Of a stretch of DNA of 64,000 nt, positions 22,801 to 41,102 are shown one piece after another. The notes under the pieces are model-generated. The model did not search any database. It worked only from the letters and a program-made list of their open reading frames with translations, and was not told the origin of the DNA. Every line of letters starts with the position of its first letter. The first letter of the stretch is position 1. Source of the stretch: Pelagibacterium limicola (lineage in GTDB: Bacteria; Pseudomonadota; Alphaproteobacteria; Rhizobiales; Devosiaceae); contig NZ_JADQDB010000004.1 in assembly GCF_015694405.1 (NCBI RefSeq), positions 310,001 through 374,000 of the forward strand. Reading direction: 5' to 3'. A program made the position numbers and the translations under genes.

Positions 22801-23050
22801 CCGCATCACCCCGACCCTCGGAGTCGAGGGTACCCTCCAGTTCGGCGCCGACACGCTGACCGGCTCCCTGAGTGGCATCGGCGTCGCCTTTTCCGCTGGC
22901 CATCGTAACACGCTCGGCGCGTTCGCGGGCTTGCGGCTGGAACACGAGACGGCGGATAATCTCTCGATTTTTGCCGAGGCGCAGGGGACTCTGAGAGACG
23001 ACCGGTCGGGCGATTTCTCTGCAAGCTTCGGGGCGAACGTAAAGTTCTGA
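19811..23050 (+). CDS. Autotransporter adhesin with a repeat passenger domain
   Basis: 1079-residue type V secreted surface protein. A signal peptide covers about 1-26 (cut near APAQS). The passenger domain contains 24 tandem units of 25 residues, three of them 22, with consensus IANSGTITTQGxxAxGIxSxGAxAx; this is the regular turn pattern of a parallel beta-helix. The C-terminal autotransporter beta-barrel spans about 793-1079 (AWIAGFGGFGYRDPAG onward) and ends in the usual terminal Phe. The function is probably adhesion or aggregation. The next gene on this strand is a diguanylate cyclase, which may link surface attachment to c-di-GMP. Ligand and cleavage are unknown. Confidence 0.88.
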   Translation: MNRYTFILGATALSCGLALGTAPAPAQSFIILNGQTVNVTQIMAGPDDIGVVELGGAIETSGGFHGIHSLGTNAQITNSGTIATQDWGALGIWSTGTNAQISNSGTITSDGFYAHGIYSEGDGAHVANSGVVATLGWSAYGINSVGSSAYITNSGTIATQDGSARGIWSDGANAQIANSGTITTQGNAAHGIWSRGDDAQIANSGTIATQGNTAFGISSLGASAQIDNSGTILTQGEIAHGLYSEGDGTRIANSGDIETQGWASSGIVSFGADVQITNSGTITTQDDDAYGIASLGTGAQITNSGTITTQGLEAYGIYTDGNDVQIANSGTISSGTVGILSVGADAKIANSGAISSGTIGISSDGASAYIDNSGTISSGTGGVSSMGADAQIVNSGTIATQLGGAHGITSDGAGARIANSGSITTQGNSAQGISTGGNNARIANSGTIATQASNAYGIASDGANAHIANSGIVATLASNAHGIVSDGANARIANSGTIATQGGGAFGIASDGVGARITNSGTVATQGVSAFAVASDGAGARIANSGAITTQGWVAYAISAAGDDAQIANSGSLTTHGGGASGILSIGANARIANSGSITTQGSVTEGIYSEGANARIVNSGSISALGHQAWGVVSNGANAHIVNSGAIRAPGTDSMAIYMDSGATNATLDLLPGTVLEGAIFVHDTVAPGMTMNIGYGPNTSIRFTDAGYFPWDTGALPGTINAKAAMVVIDQDAMTVMTADATAPQAAASTLGSLTGGIFGAIGARDTGGALRTPVQPLGYAPARPSPTNAFDIFEAMDEAYSPQAWIAGFGGFGYRDPAGTSPGHRHGMSGIVSGIDLGANEAGTSGILIGGAWERTDVPGSQTVNASSIFGGAYGAIALGDTSIDLGLILGRTSFESTRAVFDNMAPGGIANARAEYGGVFVSPHLAITQSVDLGGQAVKVGGSVRYSGLFLDGYAETGTNAPLSVDARDHHAVTARAFVSVPFQTQHDDGAISRITPTLGVEGTLQFGADTLTGSLSGIGVAFSAGHRNTLGAFAGLRLEHETADNLSIFAEAQGTLRDDRSGDFSASFGANVKF
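20035..21808 (+). repeat. Array of 24 tandem 75-base units inside the autotransporter gene
   Basis: Units recur every 75 bases (for example AACAGCGGA at 20342 and 20417); three units near 20790-21000 are 66 bases. Length stays a multiple of three, so unit gain or loss would keep the frame. Neighbouring units around 21120-21460 are especially alike, which favours slippage or recombination. Each unit encodes one NSG-containing beta-helix rung. Confidence 0.85.
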
Positions 23051-26340: not shown

Positions 26341-27222
26341 TCAGTCATACTTGGGGTGATTGTGGTGAACGCCGCGGGCGCGAGTGGAAAGCTGCAGCCC
26401 GATAAAAATAACGACGATGCCCGGTATTATGGCTGTGCCCGGTACTTCGGAAAAAACGAAATACCCTGTCAAAGAAGCAAAAACGATCGACAGGTAGCCA
26501 AGAGGGGCCAGGATACTGGCCGGGGTGGATTGATAGGCTTTGAGGAAGCAGAATTGCGCGATTTGGGCCAGCAGGCCTATCCCGATCAGGAGTGGCCAAT
26601 CCCCAACGGCAACAGGATTCCAGAATAATATGGCCGGTACAGCGGTCAAAATGGACAGCCCCACCGTATAGAACACCATCATCACCGTGGTGTTCTCGTC
26701 TTTGAGCGCCCGGGTCTGTATGGTGGCCATTGAGCCGAAAAATACAGAACCGAATGCCGCAGCAAGCCCCCAATCAAAGGGAATCTCTCCCGGCGCAATG
26801 ATAATCAGGACGCCAGCGAAGCCAAGTGCCACGCCAACCCATTGCATTGCCCCAACCCTCTCGGCAAGGAGTATGACAGCAAGAATTGTAACCACGAGCG
26901 GGCGCATGAAGCCGATGGCATTGACCAGTGCAAGGGGCAAAGCCGCCAATGCCGAGAAATTGCAGGTAAGTGCCAGCGCATTGCAAAACACACGAAAGCT
27001 GTGCCGTCCGGCTCGCCGCGTTGAAAACACCTCGGCGCGGTAGCGCCAGATAAGGGGCGTGATCGCACCCAGACCGATCAGCGACCGAATGAACACCAAC
27101 TGGATTGCCGGATAGTCGGCGCCTGCCAACTTAACCAGCGCCGTCATAGCCGTTACAAGCAGCATGTCGGCCAAAAGCCACGCCATCCCCGATCTGTTGG
27201 CTGCGTCGGGTGCGCCCATCAT
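26341..27222 (-). CDS. DMT-superfamily (EamA) transporter
   Basis: 293-residue membrane protein with about ten hydrophobic helices in two EamA repeats (LVFIRSLIGLGAITPLIWR in the first; LAQIAQFCFLKAYQSTPASI in the second). ATG 27222 lies 4 bases after the PIG-L stop, indicating one operon. An in-frame start at 27333 would overlap that gene by more than 100 bases. Such proteins usually export small metabolites; the substrate is unknown. Confidence 0.85.
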   Translation of the reverse strand: MMGAPDAANRSGMAWLLADMLLVTAMTALVKLAGADYPAIQLVFIRSLIGLGAITPLIWRYRAEVFSTRRAGRHSFRVFCNALALTCNFSALAALPLALVNAIGFMRPLVVTILAVILLAERVGAMQWVGVALGFAGVLIIIAPGEIPFDWGLAAAFGSVFFGSMATIQTRALKDENTTVMMVFYTVGLSILTAVPAILFWNPVAVGDWPLLIGIGLLAQIAQFCFLKAYQSTPASILAPLGYLSIVFASLTGYFVFSEVPGTAIIPGIVVIFIGLQLSTRARGVHHNHPKYD

Positions 27223-27226
27223 CCGA

Positions 27227-29605
27227 TCAGGCCGGTTGCACCAGATTGGCCACCAGGCGGAACGCCCCGGGCACCAGTCGGTCAAGCTGGTGGTGCAGCA
27301 CGAGGCTCGTGTGGGTATGGCGACCTTTGCCAATTTTTGCTGAAATCAGCGAACCGATGAGCGGTGACTCTCCAGCATCGTTCATTGCCAGCAACGGCGA
27401 ATATGCAGGGTCCCATTCTGACGCGAAGTAAAGCCCGCGTTCCTTGTCCCAGCCGGAAAAGTCGTTCAGCGTGATCTGGTTCGGCCCGCAGAGCAGAGGA
27501 TGACGGGGCTCCAATATATTTACAGGCGCTGCCGGATCGGTTACCCGCCAACGCAAAGACGGCGAGCCGATGACTATTCGTCCCGGAGGGGTTCGCTCGG
27601 GGTCCCAGCCATCAGTCGGCCTGTGATAGAGCGTGAGCAGATGACCACCTGCCTCGACCCAGCGACGCAGCTTGTCGCGTGCTGCAATTAGATCGGGCCG
27701 CAAACCAAAAGCAAAAATTCCAATAACGATGGTTGTGAAGTGCGAAAGGCCCCCGGCCAATTCGTCGGCGCCAAGCAGGGTGACATCAAGTCCCATCCGC
27801 GAGAGCCATAACCCCACCCGGTCGGCGCCGCCGCCGGCATAGCCGATACGGGCTCCGTCGGGGCGTTTAAAATCCAGCGCCAACACCTCTAGGGTTTCTG
27901 GCCGGAAAAATCGGGCTCGTCCTATGTGGTCGTAGTCAATATCGCTTTGTCGATAAGCTCGCTCGCCATCGATATCAAGGGCCAGCGAATGCCGTCCTGA
28001 TGGAAGGTCTGCAGGTGTCACTATTAGAAATCGGTCGGCATTTCGCCTCACCTCGATTCCATTTAGGGCCGATAAATGGGCATTCTGGTCCCCCGCACCG
28101 CGCAATGTCACCACATGCTCGACGGCGCTCACACCCATCGGCACGATCAGCGCCTCAGGATCGAGAGCCACAACATGACGTGGAACGATCTGTACGGCTT
28201 CTTCAAGATCGATAGGCACCGAGATTGCACGCCCCCCGATCTGCGTTTCGACTTTCACGCTGACGAGGCCGTTGCCGCCGATGCTGGAGAAATCGGGCGG
28301 GAAGCCGTTTGCCGGTATGGCATCCGCGGCAACCTTGAGCACAAAGCTGGTGATGTTCCCTGCCTGCTCTGAGTGTGCCGCCGCTAGCACATCGGACAGC
28401 ACAGGTCTGATGGTTACGGGGGCGAGGTGCGATCCCAACTCCACATGGATATTAAGGCGTGTCTCACCAGCCGGTGGCAGCGCGTTCTGCTCAGCCCAGC
28501 CGGTGATCCGCAGCCCGGCAGCGACGGCCAGCGCCGTATCGATTTCTTCAAGTTTGCGTTTCAGCCTATGCGTGTGTTGGGCGGGAGTATCCTTTTGCAC
28601 ACGTTCGATTTCGCCTGCTGCGGCTGCAAGTTCGGCAATGATTGTTTCGCGATTGGGAAAGGCGGCAATGGCGGCATCAATATGGACTTGCGCCTGGGTA
28701 ATCCCTCGCTTGGAGGCTTCCGGCATATCGTGCGCCAGATCTCCAAGAGTGGCAGGGAGCCCATCGCGGATATCCAACTCGGCTTTTCCCTCGGCCTGCT
28801 TCAGGTGCAACGGCCAATCCGACCTGGGTTCTGCGCTCCAATGTCCCATACCCTGCGAGGCATGGTACGCGCGTGACCATTCTCCGATCTCGTCGTAACG
28901 CGCCCCGGTGGCAGGGTCCCTTCCCGGATCGACAACCGAAACCGTCGCTGGCGGTGGCGGCACTTCGTCATCATAGGTGCCACCACCACCCGGCCAGGAG
29001 GGAAGATAGTATTTCGCGACGGTCCAGGGCTCCAATCCCCATGCGCTATGCTCGGGATAGGCATCGGGATCGGCAGCCAGCGCCAGCGCCGTTTCGGCCG
29101 CTTCGGTCATGGCGCGATGGTGACCATGCTGACCGGGCACGTCCAGGAAGGTTGGGATTACGATATCGGGGCGGAACTGACGATAGGCGCGCACCAACCG
29201 CTCGATGGTGCGCTCACGGCCCCAGCGAGCAAGCGTATCGGTTCCTTTCTTTGAAAAGCCGAAATCGTGAACCGGATCGTCAGGACCATGACCGAGCCAT
29301 GCGATATCGGCGTCGAGGACCTTTGCCGCCTCCTCGAGTTCGCGCGTGCGCAATACGCCCAGAGCGCCGGCGCGCTCGGGGCCGAGGCTATTCTGGCCGC
29401 CTTCGCCGCGGGTTGAGCACGCAATGACGGTACGCATCCCCATTCCCAAACGCATGACCGCCAGCATTCCGCTTTGCTCATCGTCGGGATGGGCGCCCGT
29501 ATGCATCACCGTTATTACGGAGCGCAGGCGGCTCAATGCGCGGTGGAGTTCCAAGAGATAGGGGCGGGACTGAGAGCGCATGAGGCGCTGCCTATCGGTA
29601 AGCAT
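27227..29605 (-). CDS. Large PIG-L family deacetylase with a fused C-terminal GATase-like region
   Basis: 792-residue protein. Residues about 30-300 are a PIG-L/LmbE zinc deacetylase domain with GAHPDDEQSG and GQHGHHRAM metal motifs. The middle (about 380-560) is a beta-rich region resembling NEW3/sugar-hydrolase accessory domains. The end (about 590-790) resembles a class I glutamine-amidotransferase-like fold (RVGLWLSRMGLDVTLLGADE, then GGHLLTLYHRP) but shows no clear catalytic Cys. Normal PIG-L enzymes are 220-300 residues. No signal peptide is seen. It follows a ROK regulator gene and precedes a DMT transporter. Substrate is unknown; an N-acetylated sugar conjugate is plausible. Confidence 0.8.
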   Translation of the reverse strand: MLTDRQRLMRSQSRPYLLELHRALSRLRSVITVMHTGAHPDDEQSGMLAVMRLGMGMRTVIACSTRGEGGQNSLGPERAGALGVLRTRELEEAAKVLDADIAWLGHGPDDPVHDFGFSKKGTDTLARWGRERTIERLVRAYRQFRPDIVIPTFLDVPGQHGHHRAMTEAAETALALAADPDAYPEHSAWGLEPWTVAKYYLPSWPGGGGTYDDEVPPPPATVSVVDPGRDPATGARYDEIGEWSRAYHASQGMGHWSAEPRSDWPLHLKQAEGKAELDIRDGLPATLGDLAHDMPEASKRGITQAQVHIDAAIAAFPNRETIIAELAAAAGEIERVQKDTPAQHTHRLKRKLEEIDTALAVAAGLRITGWAEQNALPPAGETRLNIHVELGSHLAPVTIRPVLSDVLAAAHSEQAGNITSFVLKVAADAIPANGFPPDFSSIGGNGLVSVKVETQIGGRAISVPIDLEEAVQIVPRHVVALDPEALIVPMGVSAVEHVVTLRGAGDQNAHLSALNGIEVRRNADRFLIVTPADLPSGRHSLALDIDGERAYRQSDIDYDHIGRARFFRPETLEVLALDFKRPDGARIGYAGGGADRVGLWLSRMGLDVTLLGADELAGGLSHFTTIVIGIFAFGLRPDLIAARDKLRRWVEAGGHLLTLYHRPTDGWDPERTPPGRIVIGSPSLRWRVTDPAAPVNILEPRHPLLCGPNQITLNDFSGWDKERGLYFASEWDPAYSPLLAMNDAGESPLIGSLISAKIGKGRHTHTSLVLHHQLDRLVPGAFRLVANLVQPA

Positions 29606-29618
29606 GGCTAAAACCTCA

Positions 29619-30857
29619 TCAAGCGAGCGACGGTAGGTGCATTGGAGCAGGGGCGGTGCTCAGATGCGGGGATACGGCATCGAGCAGGGGCAACGCGGCC
29701 GCACCCAGCGCCGCCGTCAGTTGGCCGGTTTGGCCGATGAGCACGCGTGGATGGGTCCGGCCGGGCCGAACCGCAATCGACACGGGCAGCGGGTCGAGTG
29801 CAGAGATCATCGCCTCAAGTATGCAATCGGGCAGCCCGCCGCCAAATATCACGGTCTCGGGGTCGAAGATGTTCTCGAGCATCGCTATAGCAGGCGCCAG
29901 GTGGTCCGCGGCCTCCACGATCCAATCGAGCAGCGCGGGTTCGCGCGCCTGATACAGGGCTTCGATCGCTTCTACGGTATCGATCCTATGACCGGCCGTT
30001 GCCATTCGCGCGCGCAGCGCGACTACAGATACGAAATTTTCTATAGCGCCATCGGGCCCATATAGTGCCGTCCGGTTGCGCGGGGTTATCGCCACGTGCC
30101 CGATTTCGCCCGCATTTCCAAACGTGCCGCGCAATGGGCGGCCGTCCTGAATGATACCGAGCCCAAGGCCTGCCCCAAAATAAAGATAACAGAAGTTGTC
30201 GATCCGTCGCCCTGCGCCGTAAAGCCGTTCACCCACCGCGGCGGCCGTCGCATCGTTGTCGAGACTGACTGGATACCCCGTCGCAAGGCCGATCATAGGA
30301 ACCGGGTCGACGCCTTGCCATCCCGGAAGCATGCCCGGCCCGACCGAACTCATCGCCTCGACCTCAAACGGGCCAGGCATAACGACACCGATACCCAGAA
30401 TGCGTCCGCCCCCGGCCAGTTCGGCGAGGGCGGCAACTTCATGAGCCACGCGCCCCGGGATAACTGCCGGACTGGTGTTCTGGAGCGGTATATGGGCCTG
30501 TGCCCTGACCCGGCCTGAAAGATCGAGTAGCACGCCCACCATATGGTCAGCGGCGATCTCTACCCCTGCGGTCATCGGTCCATCGGGGTTTATTGCAAAC
30601 TGTATTGGTGGCTGGCCGCGGCCCGCCCGCAGGCGGCCCGTTTCGATCAACATGCCTTCATCGAGCAGCTCATCGACAATATTGGCCACGGCTTGTGCAG
30701 TAAGCTGGGCGTGGCGAGCAATTTCCGTACGGCCAAGATGGCCGTGTAGCCTTATCGCTTCCAGAACAACCCTGCGATTGTGCGCGCGGTTTCTACCGGG
30801 ATTTGACCCAATGGCAAGCCGCTTGGACTGCGCGACCTGCCTCCTATTGCTGGTCAT
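29619..30857 (-). CDS. ROK-family transcriptional regulator lacking the zinc cysteines
   Basis: 412-residue NagC/XylR-like protein. An N-terminal winged HTH (HGHLGRTEIARHAQLTAQAVANIVDEL) precedes a ROK sugar-binding/kinase-like domain (LDNDATAAAVGERLYGAG, GNAGEIGHVAI). The canonical CxCGxxGC zinc motif after GEIGH is absent: the region reads TPRNRTALYGPDGAIENFV, with no Cys. ATG 30857 has a good GGGGAGAGG site; an in-frame start at 30971 is less likely. The gene is divergent from a sugar ABC operon, which it probably regulates together with the downstream PIG-L/DMT genes. Confidence 0.87.
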   Translation of the reverse strand: MTSNRRQVAQSKRLAIGSNPGRNRAHNRRVVLEAIRLHGHLGRTEIARHAQLTAQAVANIVDELLDEGMLIETGRLRAGRGQPPIQFAINPDGPMTAGVEIAADHMVGVLLDLSGRVRAQAHIPLQNTSPAVIPGRVAHEVAALAELAGGGRILGIGVVMPGPFEVEAMSSVGPGMLPGWQGVDPVPMIGLATGYPVSLDNDATAAAVGERLYGAGRRIDNFCYLYFGAGLGLGIIQDGRPLRGTFGNAGEIGHVAITPRNRTALYGPDGAIENFVSVVALRARMATAGHRIDTVEAIEALYQAREPALLDWIVEAADHLAPAIAMLENIFDPETVIFGGGLPDCILEAMISALDPLPVSIAVRPGRTHPRVLIGQTGQLTAALGAAALPLLDAVSPHLSTAPAPMHLPSLA

Positions 30858-31131
30858 GGCCTCTCCCCGAATTCGCTGCCCCCATAAGACGTGGCGCAAT
30901 ATCATTGACCATCCACGCATCCATCCCAGAAGACTTCGACAAGGACAGTTGGTAAAAGCTAGGTCAGGCAATTCAATAACTCAAGTAGATTATTTTATTG
31001 ACAACTTCTCTGTCCTCGTTTCACCTTGAGCTTTGGAATTGCGGGAATGTCTCGCGTTTCAACAAGGAGCGGACCCGATGCAGCGGGAGGGTATTGCAAT
31101 AGCCGCATGCAAGGGCATCAAGGAGGTTTCA
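30858..31131. promoter_or_regulatory. Divergent ROK/ABC-operon promoter region
   Basis: The 274-base spacer contains an AT-rich stretch with a 6-base inverted repeat, CAATAA (30974-30979) and TTATTG (30995-31000), overlapping a -35-like TTGACA (30998-31003). No good -10 box was found at standard distance. The repeat is a candidate ROK operator; an AAGGAGG ribosome site precedes ATG 31132. Confidence 0.4.
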
Positions 31132-32388
31132 ATGCGCAACCGTTTCACTTTGGCCGGCCTTGCTGCCGGTGTTTCCATGATGGCGATGGGTTCTGCCCAG
31201 GCTGTAGAAATCGAATACTGGCAATATGTGTTCGATAGCCGCGTGCAGGCGATGGACCAGCTCATCGCCAACTTCGAGGCAGCCAATCCCGGCATCACCG
31301 TCAGACACGTGACTTTTCCCTACGCCGACTACCAGACACGCGTAACCGCCGCCAAATTGGCGGGGCAGGGGCCTGACGTCGTGCAACTGTTCTATGGCTG
31401 GCTTGACAATTTTGTCGCGGGCGAACTGATCCAGCCCCTCAATCCCGACGTCTTCCCGCACGAAGAGATTGAGAGTGAGTTTTTCCCCATCGTCGGCGCC
31501 ATGAAGCGAGGCGAGGACTATTACGGATTGCCGACAGCTGTCCGCTCTCTGGCTCTTTTCTATAACAAGCAACTTTTTGACGAAGCCGGTCTCGACCCCG
31601 ATAACCCGCCCCAGACCCTCGAGGAACTGCTCGCCGCGGCTGAGGCGACCGTTAAGCGCGACGGCGCGGGCAATATCATCTCGGTTGGTCTTGCGATGGG
31701 GATGGCCGCGCAGGACCACCATTGGTGGCGTGAAGGCCTTATTCGCCAGTTCGGCGGTCAGGCCTATTCCGATGACGGGCGCACCGTGGCGTACAACGAC
31801 GACGCAGGCCTCGCTGCAACGAGCTGGCAGGCCGACCTCTACAATACTCACGGCGTCACCCAGATCGGCTTCATGGATGAACCGCAGGCTGCCTTCCGGG
31901 CTGGTCTTGCAGCAATGTCGATTGATGGCACCTTCCGCCTCGGAGCGTTCAACGCCATTGAATCCTTTGAATGGGGGGTTACTGAACTGCCCGCCAACGC
32001 CGATGGCTATCGCTCCAACTATGCAAGCTATTTTGCAAATGCCATCGGAGCGAGCGCTTCTGGTGACGAGCTTGAAGCCGCCGAAAAATTCCTGGCCTAC
32101 ATTTCTTCCGAAGAGGCCATGGAAGTGTGGCTGGACATCGTGGGCGAGTTGCCGGCGCGCCAGTCTGCGGCGCTTACAGAAGAAAACCTTTCCCATCCGG
32201 TCTATGCGCCCTTCCTAAAGGGGCTCGAATACGCTCATACCACTGTCTTTGTGGATGAAGCGGCTCAGCGGCAGGTCGCCATCGACATGGAAGCCCGGAT
32301 GTCCATTCAAGGGCAGGACCCTGCGGATGCGCTTGCCGAAGCTGCGGCAGCCGAGCAGGCCATTCTCGACAACTTCTACAGCCGCTAG
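31132..32388 (+). CDS. Sugar ABC transporter, periplasmic substrate-binding protein
   Basis: 418-residue solute-binding protein (SBP_bac_1 type). A signal peptide with cleavage after GSAQA (about residue 24) is followed by IEYWQYVFDSRVQAMDQLI and the family motif GPDVVQLFYGWL. The ATG at 31132 has a near-perfect AAGGAGG site; an upstream in-frame start at 31033 is rejected. First gene of the second sugar-uptake operon, divergent from the ROK gene and followed by a 9-base hairpin. The accompanying deacetylase, lyase and kinase suggest an unusual amino-sugar or sugar conjugate as ligand. Confidence 0.9.
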   Translation: MRNRFTLAGLAAGVSMMAMGSAQAVEIEYWQYVFDSRVQAMDQLIANFEAANPGITVRHVTFPYADYQTRVTAAKLAGQGPDVVQLFYGWLDNFVAGELIQPLNPDVFPHEEIESEFFPIVGAMKRGEDYYGLPTAVRSLALFYNKQLFDEAGLDPDNPPQTLEELLAAAEATVKRDGAGNIISVGLAMGMAAQDHHWWREGLIRQFGGQAYSDDGRTVAYNDDAGLAATSWQADLYNTHGVTQIGFMDEPQAAFRAGLAAMSIDGTFRLGAFNAIESFEWGVTELPANADGYRSNYASYFANAIGASASGDELEAAEKFLAYISSEEAMEVWLDIVGELPARQSAALTEENLSHPVYAPFLKGLEYAHTTVFVDEAAQRQVAIDMEARMSIQGQDPADALAEAAAAEQAILDNFYSR

Positions 32389-32404
32389 GACTCGACGCGG
32401 TCGA

Positions 32405-32428
32405 CCGGCGCCCGGGTAAGGGCGCCGG
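32405..32428 (+). promoter_or_regulatory. Intercistronic hairpin after the second sugar-binding-protein gene
   Basis: CCGGCGCCC (32405-32413) and GGGCGCCGG (32420-32428) form a perfect 9-base stem with a 6-base loop, 16 bases after the stop. No T-run follows, so an mRNA-stability or partial-attenuation role is more likely than full termination. Confidence 0.65.
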
Positions 32429-32504
32429 CCCCTCAATGGCTCGGCAAGGGGTGTTGCCTTTGTCTTTCGAGCTTCGTCGGGGTGTAGGGAAAAGGGGAGA
32501 AGCA

Positions 32505-33434
32505 ATGTCCTTTGGAAATGAGGCTGGCCCGGCCGGTGCTGTCGGTATCTGGGATCGCATTACCATCGGGCAGAAGCGCGTGATCTGGGCTTGGGCCTTT
32601 CTCGCCGTGCCGATCGTTTTTTATGTCGGCATTCGCTTTTATCCGACATTCCAAGCCTTCTGGCTCTCTTTCACCAATTGGGACCTTCTGCGCCCGGCCC
32701 GTTTCATAGGGCTAGCCAATTACCAGAGGATGTGGGGCGATCCCCAATTCTGGCAGGTCTTTCGCAACACCTTCGCCTATCTCATCATAGGCACCCCAAT
32801 CAGCCTCGTGGTCTCGTTCGTTATTGCCTATTATCTCGACCGCGTCCGTTTCATGCATGGTTTTATCCGCGCGCTCTATTTTCTGCCTTTCTTGACCACA
32901 GCCGCGGCAATGGCATGGGTGTGGCGGTGGTTCTATCAGCCTGTTCCCATAGGCATCATCAACAGTTTTCTGGCCAATTTCGGTTTGCCGTCCCAGCCGT
33001 TCCTGCGCTCCACAGAACAGGCGCTCCCAGCAATTATGGTCACCGCCATCTGGGCAGGGCTCGGTTTTCAAATCATCATATTCATGGCCGGCTTGAGGGC
33101 GATCCCACAGACCTTTTACGAAGCGGCCCGTATTGACGGTCTGGGCGAGTGGGCCATTCTGCGCAAGATCACCCTGCCGCTTCTCAAGCCCACCACTGTC
33201 TTCCTCGTCGTCTTCTCCTCGATCGGTTTCCTGCGGATATTCGATCAGGTCTACAACATGACGACCAACGATCCAGGCGGTCCGCTCAATTCGACCAAAC
33301 CGCTGGTTCTCCTGATCTACCAGACCGCATTTTCTTCCTATGACATGGGATACGCCGCAGCTCAAACCGTCGTGCTGTTCACGATCCTGCTCGTTGTCTC
33401 CTTGTTGCAACTTTGGGTGTTGAGGAATCGCTGA
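32505..33434 (+). CDS. Sugar ABC transporter permease (first)
   Basis: 309-residue inner-membrane permease with six predicted helices. It starts at ATG 32505 behind GGGGAGAAG; an in-frame start at 32436 is rejected. The EAA coupling loop reads TFYEAARIDGLGEWAILRKITLP. Its stop overlaps the next start (TGATG), coupling the two permeases. Confidence 0.9.
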   Translation: MSFGNEAGPAGAVGIWDRITIGQKRVIWAWAFLAVPIVFYVGIRFYPTFQAFWLSFTNWDLLRPARFIGLANYQRMWGDPQFWQVFRNTFAYLIIGTPISLVVSFVIAYYLDRVRFMHGFIRALYFLPFLTTAAAMAWVWRWFYQPVPIGIINSFLANFGLPSQPFLRSTEQALPAIMVTAIWAGLGFQIIIFMAGLRAIPQTFYEAARIDGLGEWAILRKITLPLLKPTTVFLVVFSSIGFLRIFDQVYNMTTNDPGGPLNSTKPLVLLIYQTAFSSYDMGYAAAQTVVLFTILLVVSLLQLWVLRNR

Positions 33435-34300
33435 TGGCCGCCTTGATGACTCGCCCCGGCAGTCCCGAACTCGCAGCAAACCGCAGAAATATCCGTCCCG
33501 GTCGCGTGATGGTGTGGACGCTCTTGTTCATCGGTGGCGTGATAATGGTCACGCCGCTGCTTTACATGTTCTCGACCTCGCTCAAGTCGGCAGGACAAGT
33601 CTACGATCTGCGGCTCATTCCGGCCGCACCCACGCTCGACAACTATATCAAGGTGCTGTCAGACGGGCGCTTCCTTCGCTGGTTTTTCAACTCCACCCTG
33701 ATTGCGCTCTGCGTCACGCTTTCGAACGTATTTTTCGACAGCCTCGTGGGCTACACGCTCGCCAAGTTCGATTTCCGCGGTCGATATCTCGTCTTCATCG
33801 CTATTCTTTCGACACTCATGATCCCGACCGAGATGCTGGTCATCCCCTGGTATCTGATGAGCGCGCAGTTCGGCTGGATTGATACGTATTGGGGCATCAT
33901 GTTCCCCGGTATGATGACCGCCTTCGGCACCTTCCTCATGAAACAGTTCTTTGAATCGGTGCCCAACGACTTTCTTGAAGCCGCGCGTGTGGACGGTCTG
34001 AATGAATTCACCATCTGGTGGCGCATCGCCATGCCGATGGTCGTGCCGGCGATTTCAGCTCTTGCCATCTTTACGTTCCTTGGCAACTGGACGGCATTTT
34101 TCTGGCCCCTTATCGTCACCAACAGTCGTGAGCTTTATACGCTGCCCGTTGGCCTTTCGAGCTTTGCCGTCGAACAGTCGATCCAATGGGAAATGATCAT
34201 GACCGGCGCTGCCCTCGCGACAATTCCAACTCTTCTGGTGTTTCTCGTGCTGCAACGCTTCATCGTGCGTGGCGTGATGCTGGCCGGTCTCAAGGGATAG
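33434..34300 (+). CDS. Sugar ABC transporter permease (second)
   Basis: 288-residue MalG-like permease with six predicted helices. The EAA loop is FLEAARVDGLNEFTIWWRIAMP. The start overlaps the upstream stop by one base. It lies 3 bases before the lyase gene, so transporter and enzyme genes are one operon. Confidence 0.9.
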   Translation: MAALMTRPGSPELAANRRNIRPGRVMVWTLLFIGGVIMVTPLLYMFSTSLKSAGQVYDLRLIPAAPTLDNYIKVLSDGRFLRWFFNSTLIALCVTLSNVFFDSLVGYTLAKFDFRGRYLVFIAILSTLMIPTEMLVIPWYLMSAQFGWIDTYWGIMFPGMMTAFGTFLMKQFFESVPNDFLEAARVDGLNEFTIWWRIAMPMVVPAISALAIFTFLGNWTAFFWPLIVTNSRELYTLPVGLSSFAVEQSIQWEMIMTGAALATIPTLLVFLVLQRFIVRGVMLAGLKG

Positions 34301-34303
34301 GCG

Positions 34304-35815
34304 ATGATGACAGACCCAAGACTATCGGACACAAGCGTTTTCCCCGACCCGGTCTACACGGAAACGGTGTTACGCCCACTATTCGAAGGGGCCAAGGCTC
34401 ACCACGTCGAAGGATTTCGCGCCATCGATCGCGCCCATCTCGTGATGTTGGCGGAAACCGGGATTCTCGACGCGGGGCAGGCCTCCGCCCTTGCCTCGGC
34501 ATTGGTGGACATCGATGCAGAGGTCGACGTCCCGTCTCTTACCTACACCGGGGAGGTCGAGGACTTTTTCTTTCTGATCGAACGCGAACTGCGCAAGCGC
34601 CTTGGTCCGGATCTCGCAGGCCGTCTGCATACGGCCCGTTCACGCAACGATATCGACCACACCCTGTTCAAAATCGGGCTGAAAGAGCGGATTGATGTTC
34701 TCATCGGTAAGGCCATGGCGCTGCATACCGCGCTCATCGACGCTGCCGAGCGGGAAAAGGACACGCTGATCGTTGCTTATACCCACGGACAGCCAGCTCA
34801 GCCCTCAACCTTCGGGCACTATCTTTCCGCCGTAATCGAAGTGCTCGCTCGCGACATCGAACGCCTCTTTGAAGCTCGAGCGGTTGTGGATCTCTCCCCG
34901 ATGGGCGCCGCTGCGATCACGACGTCGGGGTTTCCTATAGATCGCGAGCTTGTCGCCCGGCTGCTGGGCTTTTCCGCCCCCCTCCAGAATTCATACAGTT
35001 GTATTGCAGCGGTGGACTACATAACGGCCACCTATGGCGCGATCGAGTTGATGTTTCTCCATATCGGGCGCCCGATTCAGGACTTTCAGTACTGGACGGC
35101 ATTCGAGGTCGGCCAACTCTATGTGCCGAATGCGCTGGTGCAGATCTCGTCCATCATGCCGCAGAAGCGCAATCCCGTGCCGATCGAGCATCTTCGACAT
35201 CTCGCGAGCCAGACCATGGCGCGCGCGCGCGCAATGCTCGATGTGATGCACAATACCCCGTTTACGGACATGAACGACAGCGAGGGCGAAACCCAGGCGA
35301 TGGGGTACCAGGCGTTCGATTGCGCCTATCGTGTACTCGATCTGTTAAGTTCGGTCATCTCACAGGTGCGGGTCGATTCAACGCGTGTAGCGGGCACAAT
35401 CCGCCGCTCCTGCATAACCATTACCGAACTTGCAGATAGCCTTGTGCGCCAGGAAGGACTGTCTTTCCGCGAAGGCCACGAAATTGCCGCGACCGTCGCA
35501 CGCGCCGTGGTCTCGATTGACGGCGATCTTCTGATCGATGGCTACGGTCCTTTCATAGAGGCTTTCGAAAGGCTGACCGGACGCCACACCGCGATAGGAC
35601 CGGAGCGCTTTGCCGAGCTTGTTTCGCCGGAGAATTTTGTTGCCGTGCGTGCACGATATGGCGGTCCTGCTGCCGGTCCTTTGGGAGAGGCCATCGCTGG
35701 CTACCGCGAAAAGGCCGAGTTCTTTTCCGAGATGGCCGCTGGCCATGCGCGGCGAACAGCCGCCGCCGCCGCCGAACTCGATACACGTTTCAACGCCTTG
35801 ATAGGGGAAGCCTGA
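34304..35815 (+). CDS. Argininosuccinate-lyase-like enzyme of an uptake operon
   Basis: 503-residue member of the fumarase/aspartase superfamily, closest in pattern to ArgH. It shows LHTARSRND (about 108), THGQPAQPSTFGH and the flexible catalytic loop SSIMPQKRNP, with the catalytic Ser. ArgH proper is about 460-470 residues. Members cleave C-N (or C-O) bonds and release fumarate; EDDS and iminodisuccinate lyases are ArgH-like examples outside arginine synthesis. Sitting between transporter permease and ATPase genes, it is far more likely catabolic than biosynthetic. The substrate is probably an imported adduct of an amino compound with a fumarate-forming acid. Calling it argH would mislead. 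Confidence 0.8.
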   Translation: MMTDPRLSDTSVFPDPVYTETVLRPLFEGAKAHHVEGFRAIDRAHLVMLAETGILDAGQASALASALVDIDAEVDVPSLTYTGEVEDFFFLIERELRKRLGPDLAGRLHTARSRNDIDHTLFKIGLKERIDVLIGKAMALHTALIDAAEREKDTLIVAYTHGQPAQPSTFGHYLSAVIEVLARDIERLFEARAVVDLSPMGAAAITTSGFPIDRELVARLLGFSAPLQNSYSCIAAVDYITATYGAIELMFLHIGRPIQDFQYWTAFEVGQLYVPNALVQISSIMPQKRNPVPIEHLRHLASQTMARARAMLDVMHNTPFTDMNDSEGETQAMGYQAFDCAYRVLDLLSSVISQVRVDSTRVAGTIRRSCITITELADSLVRQEGLSFREGHEIAATVARAVVSIDGDLLIDGYGPFIEAFERLTGRHTAIGPERFAELVSPENFVAVRARYGGPAAGPLGEAIAGYREKAEFFSEMAAGHARRTAAAAAELDTRFNALIGEA

Positions 35816-36879
35816 TGGCCAGGATCGAACTCGAAAGGTTGGTCAAACGCTACGGTGCTACCACGGCTGTGCATGGCATCGATCTGATGGTGGAAGATGG
35901 AGAGTTCGTTGTCCTGGTGGGTCCTTCGGGCTGTGGAAAATCGACCACGCTGCGGATGATCGCCGGGCTGGAGGATATTTCGGACGGCGTGTTGCGTATC
36001 GGCGGCGAGGTGGTCAACCAGCGCGAGCCCAAGCAGCGCAACATCGCCATGGTCTTCCAGAACTACGCCATCTACCCGCATATGACCGTGGGGCAAAACA
36101 TTGGATTTGGTCTCTACACATCCAAGCTTTCCAAGCCGGAAAAGCAGGCCCGCATCCTTGATGCGGCTAAAGTTCTCGGCCTCGAAGACCTTCTCGAACG
36201 CCGCCCTGCAGCCCTGTCGGGCGGACAGCGCCAGCGTGTTGCCATTGGACGCGCCATGGTCCGGGATCCCGTCGCTTTTCTTTTCGATGAGCCACTTTCC
36301 AACCTCGATGCACAGTTGCGCGCGGCCATGCGTATCGAGATCAAACGCCTTCATCAGCGTCTGGGCACCACGATCGTCTATGTAACGCACGACCAGATCG
36401 AGGCGATGACCATGGCAGACAAGATCGTTGTGATGCGGGACGGACGAATCCTTCAGGTAGGATCGCCTACCGAACTCTACGAGCATCCGGTAGACATCTT
36501 TACAGCACGCTTTATCGGCAGTCCCTCGATGAATCTCATCGAGGCGAATGCTGCCGGAGCGGAGATCGCGGTTGCCGGCCAGTCACTGCAAGGTTTCAAG
36601 GCCGAACACTCAGGACCTGTCCAGATCGGTGTCCGGCCACACGATCTGGTGGTTGGCGAGGCCGGCGGAGGCGGCCTTTCGGTTACCGGAAGCGTGACTG
36701 CGGTCGAACCGTTGGGGTCCGAAACTCTCGTTCATCTCGATATTGCAGGTGCGCAGATCATCGCCACCGCTCCGGGGCGCGTCGTACCCAAGGTGGGCTC
36801 CCAGATTGCCGCGCACGCCGAACCGGGAGCGCTCTATGTGTTTGACGCAGCCAATGAGAGAGCGCTCGGCCGCCTATGA
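35815..36879 (+). CDS. Sugar ABC transporter ATP-binding protein (MalK/UgpC type)
   Basis: 354-residue ATPase. Walker A GPSGCGKST at 36-44, signature LSGGQRQR and Walker B FLFDEP in order, then a C-terminal TOBE domain (VGVRPHDLV-like segment VQIGVRPHDLVVGE). The start overlaps the lyase stop by one base (TGATG). It overlaps the kinase gene by 4 bases at its own end. Confidence 0.93.
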   Translation: MARIELERLVKRYGATTAVHGIDLMVEDGEFVVLVGPSGCGKSTTLRMIAGLEDISDGVLRIGGEVVNQREPKQRNIAMVFQNYAIYPHMTVGQNIGFGLYTSKLSKPEKQARILDAAKVLGLEDLLERRPAALSGGQRQRVAIGRAMVRDPVAFLFDEPLSNLDAQLRAAMRIEIKRLHQRLGTTIVYVTHDQIEAMTMADKIVVMRDGRILQVGSPTELYEHPVDIFTARFIGSPSMNLIEANAAGAEIAVAGQSLQGFKAEHSGPVQIGVRPHDLVVGEAGGGGLSVTGSVTAVEPLGSETLVHLDIAGAQIIATAPGRVVPKVGSQIAAHAEPGALYVFDAANERALGRL

Positions 36880-37793
36880 GGACAACAGAAAAATCAGCAG
36901 TGCTCAGCCTGGGTCGCATCTATTGCGATTTGGTATTCACGGGCCTTGCCGATATGCCACATCTGGGGCGGGAGATCTTTGCTCGTGATATGGTGCCCAC
37001 GCTTGGCGGGGGCGCCCTGATCACAGCCGCCCATTGTGCCATGCTTGGGCGTCCTGCGGCGTTGGTTGCACGCTACGGCACCGATCCCCTGTCTATGGCC
37101 CTCGAGGCGCATTTGGACCAACCGGGCTTGCATCGTGAATATGTGGAGCGTAGCGCGCAAGCAGGCCCGCAAGTGACCGTGGTCATGACTGCCGGAGAAG
37201 AGCGGGCCTTTTTGTCGCGCCGAGCCGGGCATGCGCTGCCTGATAGCCTGGACAAAGCACTGGCATGGGCCCGCGCATCGCATCTGCACATCGCAGAATA
37301 TGCAACGCTACATGAACGCCCTAACCTTGTCGCCTTGGCGCGCCAGCATGGACTGTCGATTTCGCTCGATCCCAGTTGGGATGACGAATTGATCCACGAT
37401 CCAGATTTCTTTCAACGCACAGCTGGAATCGATCTTTTCTTGCCCAATCTGGAAGAAGCTGCGGCTTTGACAGGGCATCAGGATCCAATGGGGGCTCTTG
37501 CTGCTCTCGCGCAGCATTTCCCTTCGGTGGCACTCAAACTCGGCGCGCGCGGGGCCATCGTTACGCTGGACGGCGCAATTTATGCTCAGGACGCTCCCAC
37601 TGTCCCGGTCATCGACACGACCGGCGCAGGAGACGCTTTCAACGCTGGCTTCATCGACGCCTGGCTGGACGGAAAAACGCCCAATGACGCTCTTGCAGCC
37701 GCCATCGAATGCGGGTCGCGCTCGGTGCAGCACCCCGGTGGACTTGGGGGTCCGACCGGCCGGCTACTGGAGCCAACCCGACGGGCAGGGTAG
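36876..37793 (+). CDS. PfkB-family sugar kinase
   Basis: 305-residue ribokinase-like enzyme. The substrate-side segment GGGALITAAHCAMLGRPA lies near residue 50, and the ATP-site signature DTTGAGDAFNAGF near 247-259 has the catalytic Asp. It is the last gene of the sugar ABC operon, overlapping the ATPase gene by 4 bases. It probably phosphorylates the sugar released after import and deacetylation or lyase action. The exact sugar cannot be told from sequence. Confidence 0.88.
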   Translation: MRTTEKSAVLSLGRIYCDLVFTGLADMPHLGREIFARDMVPTLGGGALITAAHCAMLGRPAALVARYGTDPLSMALEAHLDQPGLHREYVERSAQAGPQVTVVMTAGEERAFLSRRAGHALPDSLDKALAWARASHLHIAEYATLHERPNLVALARQHGLSISLDPSWDDELIHDPDFFQRTAGIDLFLPNLEEAAALTGHQDPMGALAALAQHFPSVALKLGARGAIVTLDGAIYAQDAPTVPVIDTTGAGDAFNAGFIDAWLDGKTPNDALAAAIECGSRSVQHPGGLGGPTGRLLEPTRRAG

Positions 37794-37972: not shown

Positions 37973-39097
37973 ATGATCACACTGGCGGCGGTCGGCGACG
38001 TAGGAGCGAAACGACACGATCCCGACGGCATGTTCGCAGGAATCGCGGACGCCTTGAAAACCGCGGACATACGGTTCGGGCAGCTCGAGACCGTCGTCTC
38101 GGATCGAGGCGCGATGAGTCCGAATGCGCGGCTAGCGATGCGAACGTCGCTCGACTTTGCGCCTGCGCTTTCTCGCGCCGGTTTCAATGTCATGAGCTTT
38201 GCCGGAAACCATTGTCTCGACTGGGGCTATCAGGGGTTTGACGACACCCTGAGTGCCATGAGCAAGGAACACATAGCGATTTGTGGCGCAGGCGAGGACC
38301 TTTCGACCGCGCGGCGCCCTGCAATTCTCAAGGCAAATGGGGAAAGGGTCGCCATCCTTGCCTACAATTCGATTCTACCCGAGGGGTACGCGGCGACCTC
38401 CAATCGTCCTGGTTGTGCGCCGCTGCGTGCCCACACGGTTTACACACCCATCGAGCCGGACCAGCCGGGAACCAGGGCTCGGGTGATGAGCTTTTGCGAT
38501 CCCGGAGACCTCGCTGCGATGAAAGCCGATATCGAAAAGGCCCGCAATGCGGCAGAATACGTAGTGGTATCAATGCACTGGGGCATACATATGACTGAGG
38601 CCGTGCTAGCCGATTACCAGCGCGAAGCCGCTCATGCTGCCATCGACTGCGGCGCCGCAGCCGTGATCGGACACCACGCCCATATTCTCAAGGGTGTGGA
38701 GTTCTTTCGCGGAGCGCCGATCTTTTACAGTCTCGGCAATTTTGCAATCGAGCAGCCCCAAGTGTGGGATCCGGCGATCGTTGAGACTGAGAGTTTCAGG
38801 CATTTGGCGAGCCTCAATCCAGGGTTCGATCCGACCCGGATTTACATGCTGCCGCAAGAAACGCGGTTTACCGGCATTGTGAGACTCCAGATGGCCCAGG
38901 GTGCGGTGTCGCGCACCGAGTTCCTTCCTGCCTTCATCGGAGACGATAGTGTGCCTCAGATGGTCGGTCGAACTGACACGAAATTTGATGACATCCTCGC
39001 CTATCTGCGGCGTATCAATCAGGCCGAGGGCATCGAAACGCACATTGTCCCTGAAGGGGATGCAATCGTACTTTCCCCATGTTCCGACCGATCGTGA
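37973..39097 (+). CDS. CapA-family (PGA_cap) metallophosphatase-like protein, copy 1
   Basis: 374-residue calcineurin-like protein of the CapA/PgsA poly-gamma-glutamate family. Motifs: VGDVGAKRHDP at the start, FGQLETVVSDRG, SFAGNHCLDWGYQG, CAPLRAH and GHHAHILKGVEFF, followed by FYSLGNFAIE. It has neither signal peptide nor membrane helix, unlike polymer-synthesis CapA/PgsA, so a cytoplasmic hydrolase is more likely. A clear paralogue lies at 46700-47818. Neighbours are a P450, a GntR regulator and a peptide-type ABC transporter. Substrate unknown; an amide- or peptide-like compound is a reasonable guess. Confidence 0.82.
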   Translation: MITLAAVGDVGAKRHDPDGMFAGIADALKTADIRFGQLETVVSDRGAMSPNARLAMRTSLDFAPALSRAGFNVMSFAGNHCLDWGYQGFDDTLSAMSKEHIAICGAGEDLSTARRPAILKANGERVAILAYNSILPEGYAATSNRPGCAPLRAHTVYTPIEPDQPGTRARVMSFCDPGDLAAMKADIEKARNAAEYVVVSMHWGIHMTEAVLADYQREAAHAAIDCGAAAVIGHHAHILKGVEFFRGAPIFYSLGNFAIEQPQVWDPAIVETESFRHLASLNPGFDPTRIYMLPQETRFTGIVRLQMAQGAVSRTEFLPAFIGDDSVPQMVGRTDTKFDDILAYLRRINQAEGIETHIVPEGDAIVLSPCSDRS

Positions 39098-39116
39098 TTA
39101 TCGCATGGCTGTGTAA

Positions 39117-39136
39117 GTCGACGTAATTGTCGACAA
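39117..39136. promoter_or_regulatory. Double GTCGAC site before the P450 gene (candidate GntR operator)
   Basis: The perfect palindrome TTGTCGACAA lies at 39127-39136, and a second GTCGAC at 39117-39122 is offset by 12 bases, about one helical turn. FCD-type GntR proteins commonly bind short palindromes of this form. The site is about 60 bases upstream of the P450 start. Confidence 0.6.
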
Positions 39137-39198
39137 AATGATGGACTAAAACTTCATTCTCCGCTTTGATGCAGCACATGGCGAGTGAGGAGGATGAC

Positions 39199-40437
39199 TT
39201 GGCTGATATTTCGCGACCGGCGCCCAGAACCTTTGTTCCACCGAGAAACAATCTGCATGAATTCAGCGCGGATGTGGTGGAAGGTTTCGACGACGCACAT
39301 GCGGCGTTCAAGGACTTGCGCGGCCGGTGCCCCGTCGCCCATAGCGCTGACTTCGAGGGCTTCTGGGTCCTGACGAAATATGATGACGTTGTCCGTGCCC
39401 TCGCTGATTACGAGAATTTCTCGACCGCCCACCAGAACGTCGTGCCGCGGGTAGCGACTTCAGGGCGCCGGCCCCCTTTGCATCTCGATCCGCCCGAACA
39501 CACGCCGTATCGGCGGGCAATCACGCCGCTGTTCTATCCGGAACGCATGGCATTTTGGGAGCCAGTGGTTCGCAAGATCATCGCCGATCTTCTCACGCCA
39601 CTGGTTGCGCGTGGTGAGGCAGACATCTGTGTGGACTTTTCCTATCGGTTGCCGATTTTCGTTCTGGCAGAGTTCTTTCATATTCCTGCAGAACAAGCCG
39701 AGAAAATCCGGAATATCGGGGCGGACTTCAATCGTGCGTTGCAAGTGCGCGATATGGCGGCACTCGAGCAGACAAGCTTGTTTCTCTACGATGTCGCTCG
39801 CGAGATCATCGCCCTGCGTAAGATAAGCCCGCTCGATCCCGGCGTCGACCCGACGAGCGCGATGCTCGCCGCGCGAGACGATGAAGGTAGGCCGCTGCCC
39901 GATGATATGATCCTGGGCACCATTCGGCAGTTGCTGGTTGTAGGCATTATCGCGCCAACGACATTTACCGGATCGATGGCCATTCACTTGGCGCGTCACC
40001 CGGAACATTTCGCGATGCTTAAGGCCAATCCAGCGCTGATCCCGGATGCGCTCGAAGAATTGCTACGGCTCTATACACCCTATCGCGGCTTTGCGCGCAC
40101 GGCCAAACGAGACATGGAAATCGGTGGGCGGCAAATCAGGAAGGACGAGCCCATTGCGCTGGCCTTCACGTCTGCAAACCGCGATGCCGATGCCTTCGAG
40201 GACCCCGACACCTTCAGGCTCGATCGTCCGGGCGAGAAGAAGCACATGGCATTCGGACGCGGACCGCACCAGTGCGCCGGCGCGCCGCTTGCGCGCCTTA
40301 TGCTGCGCGTCACACTGGAGGAACTGATCTCGAGAACCGGTGGTTGGAAGATTGTCGGGCCGGTACCGATGACTACATGGCCCGAATACGGTCCGTTGAG
40401 TGTACCTGTGCGGTTCCTTGGAGACGATGAGCGCTAA
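39199..40437 (+). CDS. Cytochrome P450 with atypical I-helix
   Basis: 412-residue soluble bacterial P450. The heme loop FGRGPHQCAG has the iron ligand Cys359; ELLR provides the ExxR pair; HLDPPEHTPYRR is typical of bacterial CYPs. The I-helix reads VVGIIAPTTF (about 247-256). In a gapless alignment the acidic residue and conserved Thr of the (A/G)Gx(D/E)TT motif become Ile and Ala, so the usual proton-delivery pair is missing. TTG 39199 is chosen because AGGAGG (39188-39193) precedes it by 5 bases; ATG 39169 and 39178 are alternatives. No ferredoxin or reductase gene is near. It converges with the GntR gene, the ends overlapping by 4 bases. Confidence 0.88.
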   Translation: MADISRPAPRTFVPPRNNLHEFSADVVEGFDDAHAAFKDLRGRCPVAHSADFEGFWVLTKYDDVVRALADYENFSTAHQNVVPRVATSGRRPPLHLDPPEHTPYRRAITPLFYPERMAFWEPVVRKIIADLLTPLVARGEADICVDFSYRLPIFVLAEFFHIPAEQAEKIRNIGADFNRALQVRDMAALEQTSLFLYDVAREIIALRKISPLDPGVDPTSAMLAARDDEGRPLPDDMILGTIRQLLVVGIIAPTTFTGSMAIHLARHPEHFAMLKANPALIPDALEELLRLYTPYRGFARTAKRDMEIGGRQIRKDEPIALAFTSANRDADAFEDPDTFRLDRPGEKKHMAFGRGPHQCAGAPLARLMLRVTLEELISRTGGWKIVGPVPMTTWPEYGPLSVPVRFLGDDER

Positions 40438-41102
40438 CGGAAATGCTCTTCTGCCAACCGCAGTACGTGCTGGTTTCCTGCCCGGACATGCGCGCGCATG
40501 GCGGCTTCGGCAGCGTCTGGCTTGCCGGCAAGAATGCAACTGGTGATGACCTGATGGTCGCGGTTGGAACTTGCCATCGAGTCATTGGAAAAGCTGCGCG
40601 GAAGTTGCAGGCGGTAAAGCGGCAGTCGGACCCGTGACAAGGACTCTTCGACGTGACGGTTGCCAGCGATGCGGCAGATCGTGGCGTGGTATTCGAAATT
40701 CTCGGTGTTGTACCGGTCGACATCATTTGCCGCTTCCGCATCGTCAAGACGACCCTGATGGGCACGGAGAAGATCGCGCTGGTCGGGTCCTAGTTCCATT
40801 TCGGCGGCGAGGCGAGCCGATAGCCCTTCAAGCACCTCCCGGACCCTTCCCATGTCGAGGATTTCCCCGCGCGTGAAGCGACGGACATAAACGCCGCGAT
40901 TGGCAATGAATTCAAGGTAACCCTCTCCGACGAGGGTTTTGAAGACCTCTCGAATTCGGCCGCGACCAACAGAAAATTCCTCGGCAAGGTCGACCTCGAT
41001 CAGCCTCTGACCGGGCGCATAGCCTCCCCGGTGAATGCGCGTTTTGATGCCTTGGGCGATGGCCATTGCCGAGACCGGCTCTGATGTCGTGGTGGCGCTC
41101 AT
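40434..41102 (-). CDS. GntR-family transcriptional regulator (FCD domain)
   Basis: 222-residue regulator. The N-terminal winged HTH has APGQRLIEVDLAEEFSVGRGRIREVFKTL, and the all-helical FCD ligand domain (about 90-215) has FEYHATICRIAGNRHVEESL and DHQVITSCILAG, with His residues of the usual metal/ligand pocket. It is divergent from the dipeptide-type ABC operon and convergent with the P450. It is the obvious candidate for binding the TTGTCGAC sites. FCD regulators usually respond to small organic acids, often a substrate or intermediate of the adjacent pathway. Confidence 0.9.
   Translation of the reverse strand: MSATTTSEPVSAMAIAQGIKTRIHRGGYAPGQRLIEVDLAEEFSVGRGRIREVFKTLVGEGYLEFIANRGVYVRRFTRGEILDMGRVREVLEGLSARLAAEMELGPDQRDLLRAHQGRLDDAEAANDVDRYNTENFEYHATICRIAGNRHVEESLSRVRLPLYRLQLPRSFSNDSMASSNRDHQVITSCILAGKPDAAEAAMRAHVRAGNQHVLRLAEEHFR

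Follow-up and report, generated by a model that had tools for sequence, protein, structure and literature searches.

A conserved ROK-associated gene set in Pelagibacterium limicola and its putative role in scavenging an N-acyl-glucosamine conjugate

Positions 26341-37793 of a 64,000-nucleotide stretch of the Pelagibacterium limicola genome (contig NZ_JADQDB010000004.1, positions 310,001 to 374,000; the whole stretch is called the window here) hold nine genes that form a real conserved unit. The module contains a ROK-family regulator, a PIG-L (LmbE-like) hydrolase fusion, an ATP-binding cassette (ABC) transporter of the CUT1 type, a lyase resembling the argininosuccinate lyase ArgH, a PfkB-family kinase and a DMT-family transporter. 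From the gene identities and their conservation, the lyase residues kept or changed and the amino-sugar genes found near the module in some relatives, we infer the reactions, their order and the substrate of a ROK-controlled scavenging pathway for an N-acyl-glucosamine conjugate, with a probability of about 0.58. Many soil and marine alphaproteobacteria carry the conserved set, and its apparent function is uptake of a glucosamine-containing compound and cleavage of this compound by the lyase. In this way the module links two orphan proteins, the lyase and the PIG-L fusion, to apparent amino-sugar breakdown.

The ROK gene lies in the middle of the module. The PIG-L fusion and the DMT gene are located leftward, and the genes for the solute-binding protein (SBP), two permeases, the lyase, the ATPase and the PfkB kinase follow rightward. 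All nine open reading frames (ORFs) named in a preliminary description of this DNA were recovered, and their family names agree with Pfam. On the + strand, the SBP (31033-32388) is of the CUT1 type (SBP_bac_1, 131.2 bits), the UgpA-like permease 1 (32436-33434) and UgpE-like permease 2 (33413-34300) are BPD_transp_1 proteins by Pfam and NCBIfam, the ATPase (35815-36879) belongs to the UgpC subfamily (NF008653, 459.8 bits, over the cut-off of 432), and the kinase (36876-37793) matches Pfam PfkB with 123.9 bits. The EamA/DMT-family transporter (26341-27333, - strand; Pfam EamA, 90.6 bits) is probably an exporter. Judged from orthologue starts, the true starts are likely an ATG at 31129 for the SBP, which is shorter than the ORF, about 30857 for the ROK regulator, later than in the ORF, and about 27222 for the DMT gene, beside the PIG-L stop.

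The lyase separates cleanly from its relatives. The sample from the order comprised 297 genomes; 67 of them gave lyase matches at E<=1e-60, and 24 of the 67 were set apart at E<1e-169; these 24 orthologues are 56-78% identical to the window lyase (the window itself excluded), and the next matches reach 32-36%. At E 1e-130, the lyase was found in 6 of 398 genomes of a phylum-level sample, own genome included and all from the same class, and in 12 of 385 genomes of a class-level sample. A pattern scan of GTDB genomes gave 545 loci encoding a relative of the lyase. The best 80 of the 545 are 70-79% identical to it, come from Devosia, Chelativorans, Aminobacter, Microvirga, Agrobacterium, Neorhizobium, Rhizobium, Martelella, Ochrobactrum and others, and lean to the lineage of the window; distant loci were added by the phylum-level, class-level and plasmid searches.

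The neighbours of the lyase were counted in 107 of 125 loci (loci are given as L and genomes as G numbers), namely those with more than 8.5 kb to the left and 4 kb to the right of the lyase midpoint, after the duplicates L069 and L079 were removed. Each permease and the ATPase are present in 102 of the 107 loci, the SBP in 101, a ROK gene running divergently to that of the SBP in 92, the PIG-L fusion in 91, PfkB in 78 and DMT in 54. In L057-L060 the ROK gene stands downstream in place of the divergent position. The 107 loci come mostly from one order and hence are not independent, and the gene arrangement is far beyond chance. The neighbourhood check proposed in the preliminary description thus found the gene set kept together in the 107 loci and in the 297 genomes. 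These counts bear out its claim of a single ROK-governed uptake and breakdown module, in which a deacylase, a fumarate-type lyase and a sugar kinase are kept together.

The two orphan enzymes also occur together when searched for separately. The PIG-L fusion was found in 16 of the 297 order-sampled genomes (E 1e-60), and all 16 are among the 24 lyase genomes; the chance of this is 6e-21 under independence of genomes, which does not hold. When both proteins were searched separately in plasmids, all 21 fusion-bearing records fell within the 27 lyase-bearing records. In L164, L166 and L167 the PIG-L fusion is adjacent to the lyase and the CUT1 transporter is absent. An SBP_bac_5-like gene of the peptide type, 25% identical to that of the window, stands directly after PIG-L in L167, and by eye a gene with a similar opening takes the same place in L164 and L166.

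The lyase (34304-35815, + strand; Lyase_1 and ASL_C2) is the core enzyme of the module and has the ArgH/EDDS-lyase fold. By annotation it could be a second argininosuccinate lyase sitting by chance in a sugar operon, as 22 of the 27 plasmid records label it argininosuccinate lyase and the window protein exceeds the cut-off of the argH equivalog TIGR00838 by 4 bits (283.8 versus 279.5). However, the genome encodes a separate ArgH of 621.8 bits on contig C12, so that the lyase is not its only ArgH. The preliminary description had named a sole ArgH of normal activity, or a gene set not kept together, as decisive against its proposal; neither is the case. The two proteins share 30.5% identity over 453 aligned residues. 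Together with the gap between orthologues and next matches and with 14 positions that are uniform in 6/6 ArgH and changed in 22/22 members of the lyase family, this makes a second ArgH highly improbable, and an ordinary ArgH was rejected. The lyase is very probably mislabelled and something other than argininosuccinate lyase.

The 14 positions were read from an alignment of 22 of the 24 orthologues with 6 ArgH. The lyase family has D118, H119, T206, T207, Y231, V292 and H316 where ArgH has V, A, A, G, L, D and K, and N317, T318, F320, D322, M323, S326 and E327 where ArgH has G, L, L, Y, S, M and Q. The ArgH residues outside the fumarate site (V118, A119, L231, D292, Y322 and Q327 in window numbering), several of which presumably face arginine, are all replaced in 22/22. 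In contrast, the fumarate-side residues T160, H161, S283, K288, N290 and E295 are kept in the 22 aligned proteins, as is R112-S113-R114-N115. The catalytic loop of the superfamily of fumarase, aspartase and argininosuccinate lyase (ASL) is SSxMPxKxN. The window lyase has the loop SSxMPQKxNP together with the active-site His/Glu pair, as expected for a member of this superfamily, and S282, S283, M285, K288, N290, H161 and E295 are present in 22/22. We take S283, K288 and N290 to have their roles in the fumarate site. For goose delta-crystallin, H160 and E294 are described as an active-site pair and H160 as contacting the fumarate moiety (PMC2779060). Since the fumarate-side residues are kept and the other ArgH positions changed, the natural reading would be a fumarate-type lyase whose leaving group is new.

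In the AlphaFold2 model of the lyase (pLDDT 86.5, pTM 0.87), the nearest structure is EDDS lyase (Z 37.5, rmsd 2.8, 462 aligned residues, 25% identity), followed by ASL (Z 34.8). EDDS lyase of Chelativorans sp. BNC1 (PDB 6g3d-6g3i) has in common with the window lyase the fold, the SSxMPQKxNP loop and a presumed fumarate product; they differ in that its Q159 is replaced by H161, the ArgH residue, and its D290 by V292, the latter in 22/22 proteins. The counterpart of its Y320 falls in an ambiguous stretch of the alignment. EDDS lyase is described as a C-N lyase able to join a wide range of primary amines to fumarate, with D290 near the substrate (PMC12363623). An EDDS lyase orthologue was ruled out by the change at D290.

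The likeness to EDDS lyase bears on another explanation, in which the enzyme would genuinely cleave a C-N bond, in N-(1,2-dicarboxyethyl)-glucosamine (a Heyns-type adduct of fructose and aspartate) or a similar sugar-aspartate, to give fumarate and glucosamine. The nearest fold is that of a C-N lyase, the amino-sugar neighbours described below fit equally well, and SolA-like oxidase genes adjoin the PIG-L unit in some Devosia, the SolA family being known to oxidise secondary amines. However, the tightly coupled PIG-L amidase would be left without a clear task, since the glucosamine nitrogen would be alkylated rather than acylated, and valine replaces D290 of EDDS lyase throughout. A C-N lyase is therefore considered unlikely. 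The preliminary description had proposed a stepwise breakdown with splitting of a C-N bond; the logic of the steps holds, but the C-N bond is a candidate, and a C-O bond fits at least equally well.

It is also conceivable, though unlikely, that the operon scavenges another, as yet undescribed N-acyl amino-sugar conjugate of plant, fungal or bacterial origin and that the lyase product is not fumarate. The superfamily serves other acids as well: XcbC and XcbD, models for coenzyme M synthesis, are likewise ArgH/fumarase-type proteins named for unusual reactions, and the lyase gives weaker scores with them, 169.7 and 69.2 bits against cut-offs of 575 and 600. In L044-L047, four genomes of one family, a lyase orthologue (61-66% identical) stands beside an L-lactate-dehydrogenase-like gene, which hints at a hydroxy acid. 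The retention of T160, H161, S283, K288, N290 and E295 argues against a product other than fumarate.

Another ORF of the ArgH/fumarase superfamily, at 63156-63929, runs beyond the window end (L006, 1264-2772, + strand). It scores highest with the NCBIfam models PRK09053 (3-carboxy-cis,cis-muconate cycloisomerase, 471.7 bits) and PRK08937 (adenylosuccinate lyase, 467.9 bits), while XcbD gives 427.9 bits; all three scores are under cut-off.

The PIG-L fusion (27227-29605, - strand; 792 aa) carries its PIG-L domain at residues 37-173 (Pfam, 67.3 bits), followed by a middle rich in beta structure and a C-terminal region of alpha/beta type (model pLDDT 88.4). Foldseek gave LnmX and MshB as best matches of the PIG-L part, and Ig-like matches with low TM-scores for the middle. 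No N-terminal signal peptide was evident by eye. HPDD (H39, D41, D42) and HGHH (H160, H162, H163) are invariant in the 28 aligned proteins (the window and 27 of 33 relatives), so that the fusion has the HXDD and histidine metal motif given for LmbE-like enzymes in a 2014 review (PMC4101496). In the same review, all LmbE-like enzymes known by then are said to act on N-acetyl- or N-acyl-glucosamine cores, BshB acting on N-acetylglucosamine-malate (GlcNAc-malate) and Bca on bacillithiol conjugates. The fusion has the PIG-L domain and the HXDD...H motif in common with Bca, BshB and Mca, whose known substrates are N-acyl-glucosamines. It differs from them in being about three times longer, with extra C-terminal domains, and in scoring under the BshB2 and Mca cut-offs. 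The substrates of all three enzymes are O-linked at C1.

Further PIG-L genes were observed. In G202, G259 and G291 (45-47% identical), in L061 and in other Devosia, a second long PIG-L paralogue lies on the opposite strand just past the DMT gene; that of L061 opens by eye with a Tat-like signal, and the copy beside ROK is missing there. Elsewhere in the window (14642-16950, + strand), a glucosylglycerate-hydrolase-like gene (380.5 bits, cut-off 550) is immediately followed by one for a 239-aa BshB1-like PIG-L protein (78.9 bits, cut-off 182.5).

The nature of the sugar is suggested by amino-sugar genes that some relatives carry close to the module. NagB-like genes were found near 12 and NagB-II-like genes near 7 of 123 loci (125 without the duplicates), together 19/123 against 0/40 control regions from 11 lyase-bearing genomes; four of the 19 loci supplied query proteins and were still counted as matches. 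In ten Devosia loci the NagB-like gene comes after PfkB, in Paroceanicella it comes after a ROK kinase, and in Loktanella it stands beside PIG-L; the deaminase-like genes of the last two are annotated nagB. The NagB-II-like genes, which are unrelated to the NagB-like ones, immediately follow the kinase in L157 and Roseomonas, are located some 4 kb upstream in L057, L059 and L060, and are also near L158 and L169. The sugar kinases are interchangeable, as a ROK kinase takes the place of PfkB in L171, L174, L175 and L176. The sugar of the module is thus probably an amino sugar. NagA is near L158 and L169 and near no other locus counted; the acyl group may therefore be lost before phosphorylation, which is the role expected of PIG-L. 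Compared with nag operons for N-acetylglucosamine, which are governed by NagC, the module has in common a ROK regulator, a sugar kinase and, in some relatives, a glucosamine-6-phosphate-deaminase-like gene. It differs in its extra lyase, in having NagA near two loci only and in the proposed removal of the acyl group before phosphorylation. The preliminary description had spoken of a sugar conjugate and left the sugar unnamed; the genes nearby in some relatives now point to glucosamine.

In the own genome, MurQ and a GntR gene are grouped with a NagB-II-like gene (265.7 bits, cut-off 430) and NagA (280 bits, cut-off 225.65) about 57 kb away from the module; a BLAST search of this genome for NagB found none, and the NagB-II-like gene was found through the SIS family. 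MurQ beside a NagB-II-like gene could suggest an operon for recycling peptidoglycan or N-acetylmuramic acid (MurNAc), as could MurQ in L158 and the MurQ and NagK-type kinase genes 7-10 kb downstream in nine of the best 80 loci. However, MurQ is near just 10/123 loci, where it stands beside a different transporter, and it splits lactyl ethers without any ArgH-type lyase, which would be superfluous in such an operon. MurNAc recycling is thus very unlikely. The nine loci are L094, L095, L101, L104, L105, L107, L108, L111 and L134, mostly of Neorhizobium, and in most of them a further CUT1 ABC transporter lies alongside, likely as part of a MurNAc unit.

In the proposed scavenging of an N-acyl-glucosamine conjugate, the CUT1 transporter would import an N-acylated glucosamine bearing a C4-dicarboxylate. 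The PIG-L fusion, or perhaps an MBL-fold hydrolase in some relatives, would hydrolyse the N-acyl amide, and the ArgH-like lyase would eliminate the dicarboxylate as fumarate, freeing glucosamine. PfkB, elsewhere a ROK kinase, would phosphorylate glucosamine to glucosamine-6-phosphate, which NagB or NagB-II would convert to fructose-6-phosphate and ammonia.

Among known compounds, the best-fitting candidates for the substrate are bacillithiol (Cys-GlcN-malate), which is a protective thiol of other bacteria, the precursor GlcNAc-malate and N-methyl-bacillithiol. Bacillithiol consists of one glucosamine with an amide on its nitrogen and a malate ether. It fits because the amide is the usual target of PIG-L and the malate ether would yield fumarate; cleavage of the ether would be a C-O elimination like that of fumarase. 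The released amino acid would be handled by the DMT transporter or by a cysteine-handling enzyme. We tentatively propose a catabolism of bacillithiol in non-producers, a possible reading that we hold less firmly than the general pathway. Bacillithiol, or GlcNAc-malate, S-conjugates or N-methyl-bacillithiol, would be imported, PIG-L would remove the cysteine, and an ArgH-fold glucosaminyl-malate fumarate-lyase would split GlcN-malate at the C-O bond, so that glucosamine, fumarate and cysteine enter metabolism. The bacillithiol synthesis protein BshC was found in 0/24 lyase genomes searched, and the control search was positive in 3/14 named genomes (Bacillus subtilis, Thermus and Deinobacterium). 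Own synthesis in these genomes was thus rejected, and any use of bacillithiol would be scavenging. If true, this proposal would supply a path by which these thiols are degraded, would add a new C-O lyase to the ASL superfamily and would make foreign redox thiols a common nutrient in soil and sea. Bacillithiol and N-methyl-bacillithiol have been suggested as perhaps the most widespread low-molecular-weight thiols (PMC6282198).

Some neighbouring genes lend the bacillithiol reading weak support. SufS-like genes are near 6/123 loci and 0/40 controls, with the copy of L075 at 92 bases from PIG-L. In L178 (Roseinatronobacter), a gene annotated as cysteine dioxygenase family follows DMT. SolA-like oxidase genes are near 7/123 loci and 0/40 controls; in L039, L063, L068, L070, L073 and L089 they lie against the end of the PIG-L unit or overlap it, and the protein of L063 scores 426.4 bits with the model for N-methyl-L-tryptophan oxidase (cut-off 257). 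In L050, a TauE transporter gene lies beside DMT on the opposite strand. A literature search, whose coverage left out most subscription journals, found nothing on degradation or catabolism of bacillithiol or mycothiol and no relevant paper joining PIG-L, argininosuccinate lyase, ROK, ABC transporter and PfkB; the papers it found on GlcN-Mal and GlcNAc-Mal did not mention fumarate.

Several observations weigh against the proposed pathway. The PIG-L fusion is far under the cut-offs for BshB2 (TIGR04000, 23.2 versus 195.25 bits) and Mca (TIGR03446, 42.8 versus 277.15 bits), and therefore belongs to neither group. For the deaminases, the Fisher value of 0.003 overstates independence, as ten of the 12 NagB loci are of the Devosia lineage. 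The deaminase and kinase names come from best models whose scores are mostly under cut-off: NagB of L070 (232.1 versus 236.9 bits), NagB-II of L059 and L157 (257.4 and 314.5 versus 430 bits) and NagK (246.7 versus 370 bits). No deaminase adjoins the operon in the own genome, and we know of no PfkB glucosamine kinase. The cysteine clue is thin: the SufS-like genes score under the SufS cut-off, and the L178 gene annotated as cysteine dioxygenase matches no Pfam or NCBIfam model and has no relatives in the other 124 of the 125 loci searched. In L044-L047 the lyase occurs without PIG-L or transporter, and its neighbour is an LldD-like FMN dehydrogenase (459.7 bits, cut-off 376) with a FadR-like GntR gene nearby.

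In addition, 16 of the 107 loci lack the PIG-L fusion. A family of MBL-fold hydrolases adjoins the SBP or permease gene in five of these fusion-less loci (L057-L060 and L173), and was found in no fusion-bearing locus among the 107; it perhaps substitutes for the fusion, one metallohydrolase for another. Among the plasmids, 6 of the 27 lyase-bearing records lack the fusion (two from Shinella, and one each from Paroceanicella, Bosea, Roseomonas and Terrarubrum). For Bosea and for one of the Shinella records, the lyase is flanked by the transporter genes typical of the module, and by annotation and opening residues a LacI-like gene is at the place of ROK.

Control of the module was read from the region between its divergent units. 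The ROK-family regulator (29619-30971, - strand) matches Pfam ROK with 134.7 bits (cut-off 22.9) and scores 72.5 bits with NagC NF047937, below the cut-off of 650. A palindrome motif was fitted on 104 ROK-SBP intergenic regions, duplicates included, and 100 of the same 104 score above 8 bits with it; the exceptions include L163, L174 and L178. The predicted operator, the palindrome CAATAACTCAAGTAGATTATTT at 30974-30995 (+), is the sole match in the window, where 100 shuffles gave none, and the sole match of the operator pattern in the own genome. The site at the cluster has 0-2 mismatches in five of six genomes and 3 in G149, where a reversed control matched once, as often as the pattern, so that G149 is uninformative. 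Extra three-mismatch matches were found in G291 and G202. A wide ROK regulon was rejected, given the single match in the own genome. The predicted operator suggests that the module is likely a local, self-contained operon under ROK.

After the module, 37973-42846 encodes a CapA-like (PGA_cap) protein, a cytochrome P450, a GntR-type ORF and a DppA/GsiB-like peptide-binding protein. When 23 loci were searched for these genes by tblastn (E 1e-10), the sole matches were weak ones of SBP5 (25-29%), in L039 and L042. At 19811-23050 (+), a 1079-aa repetitive autotransporter-like protein shows many NSGTI-type repeats by eye.

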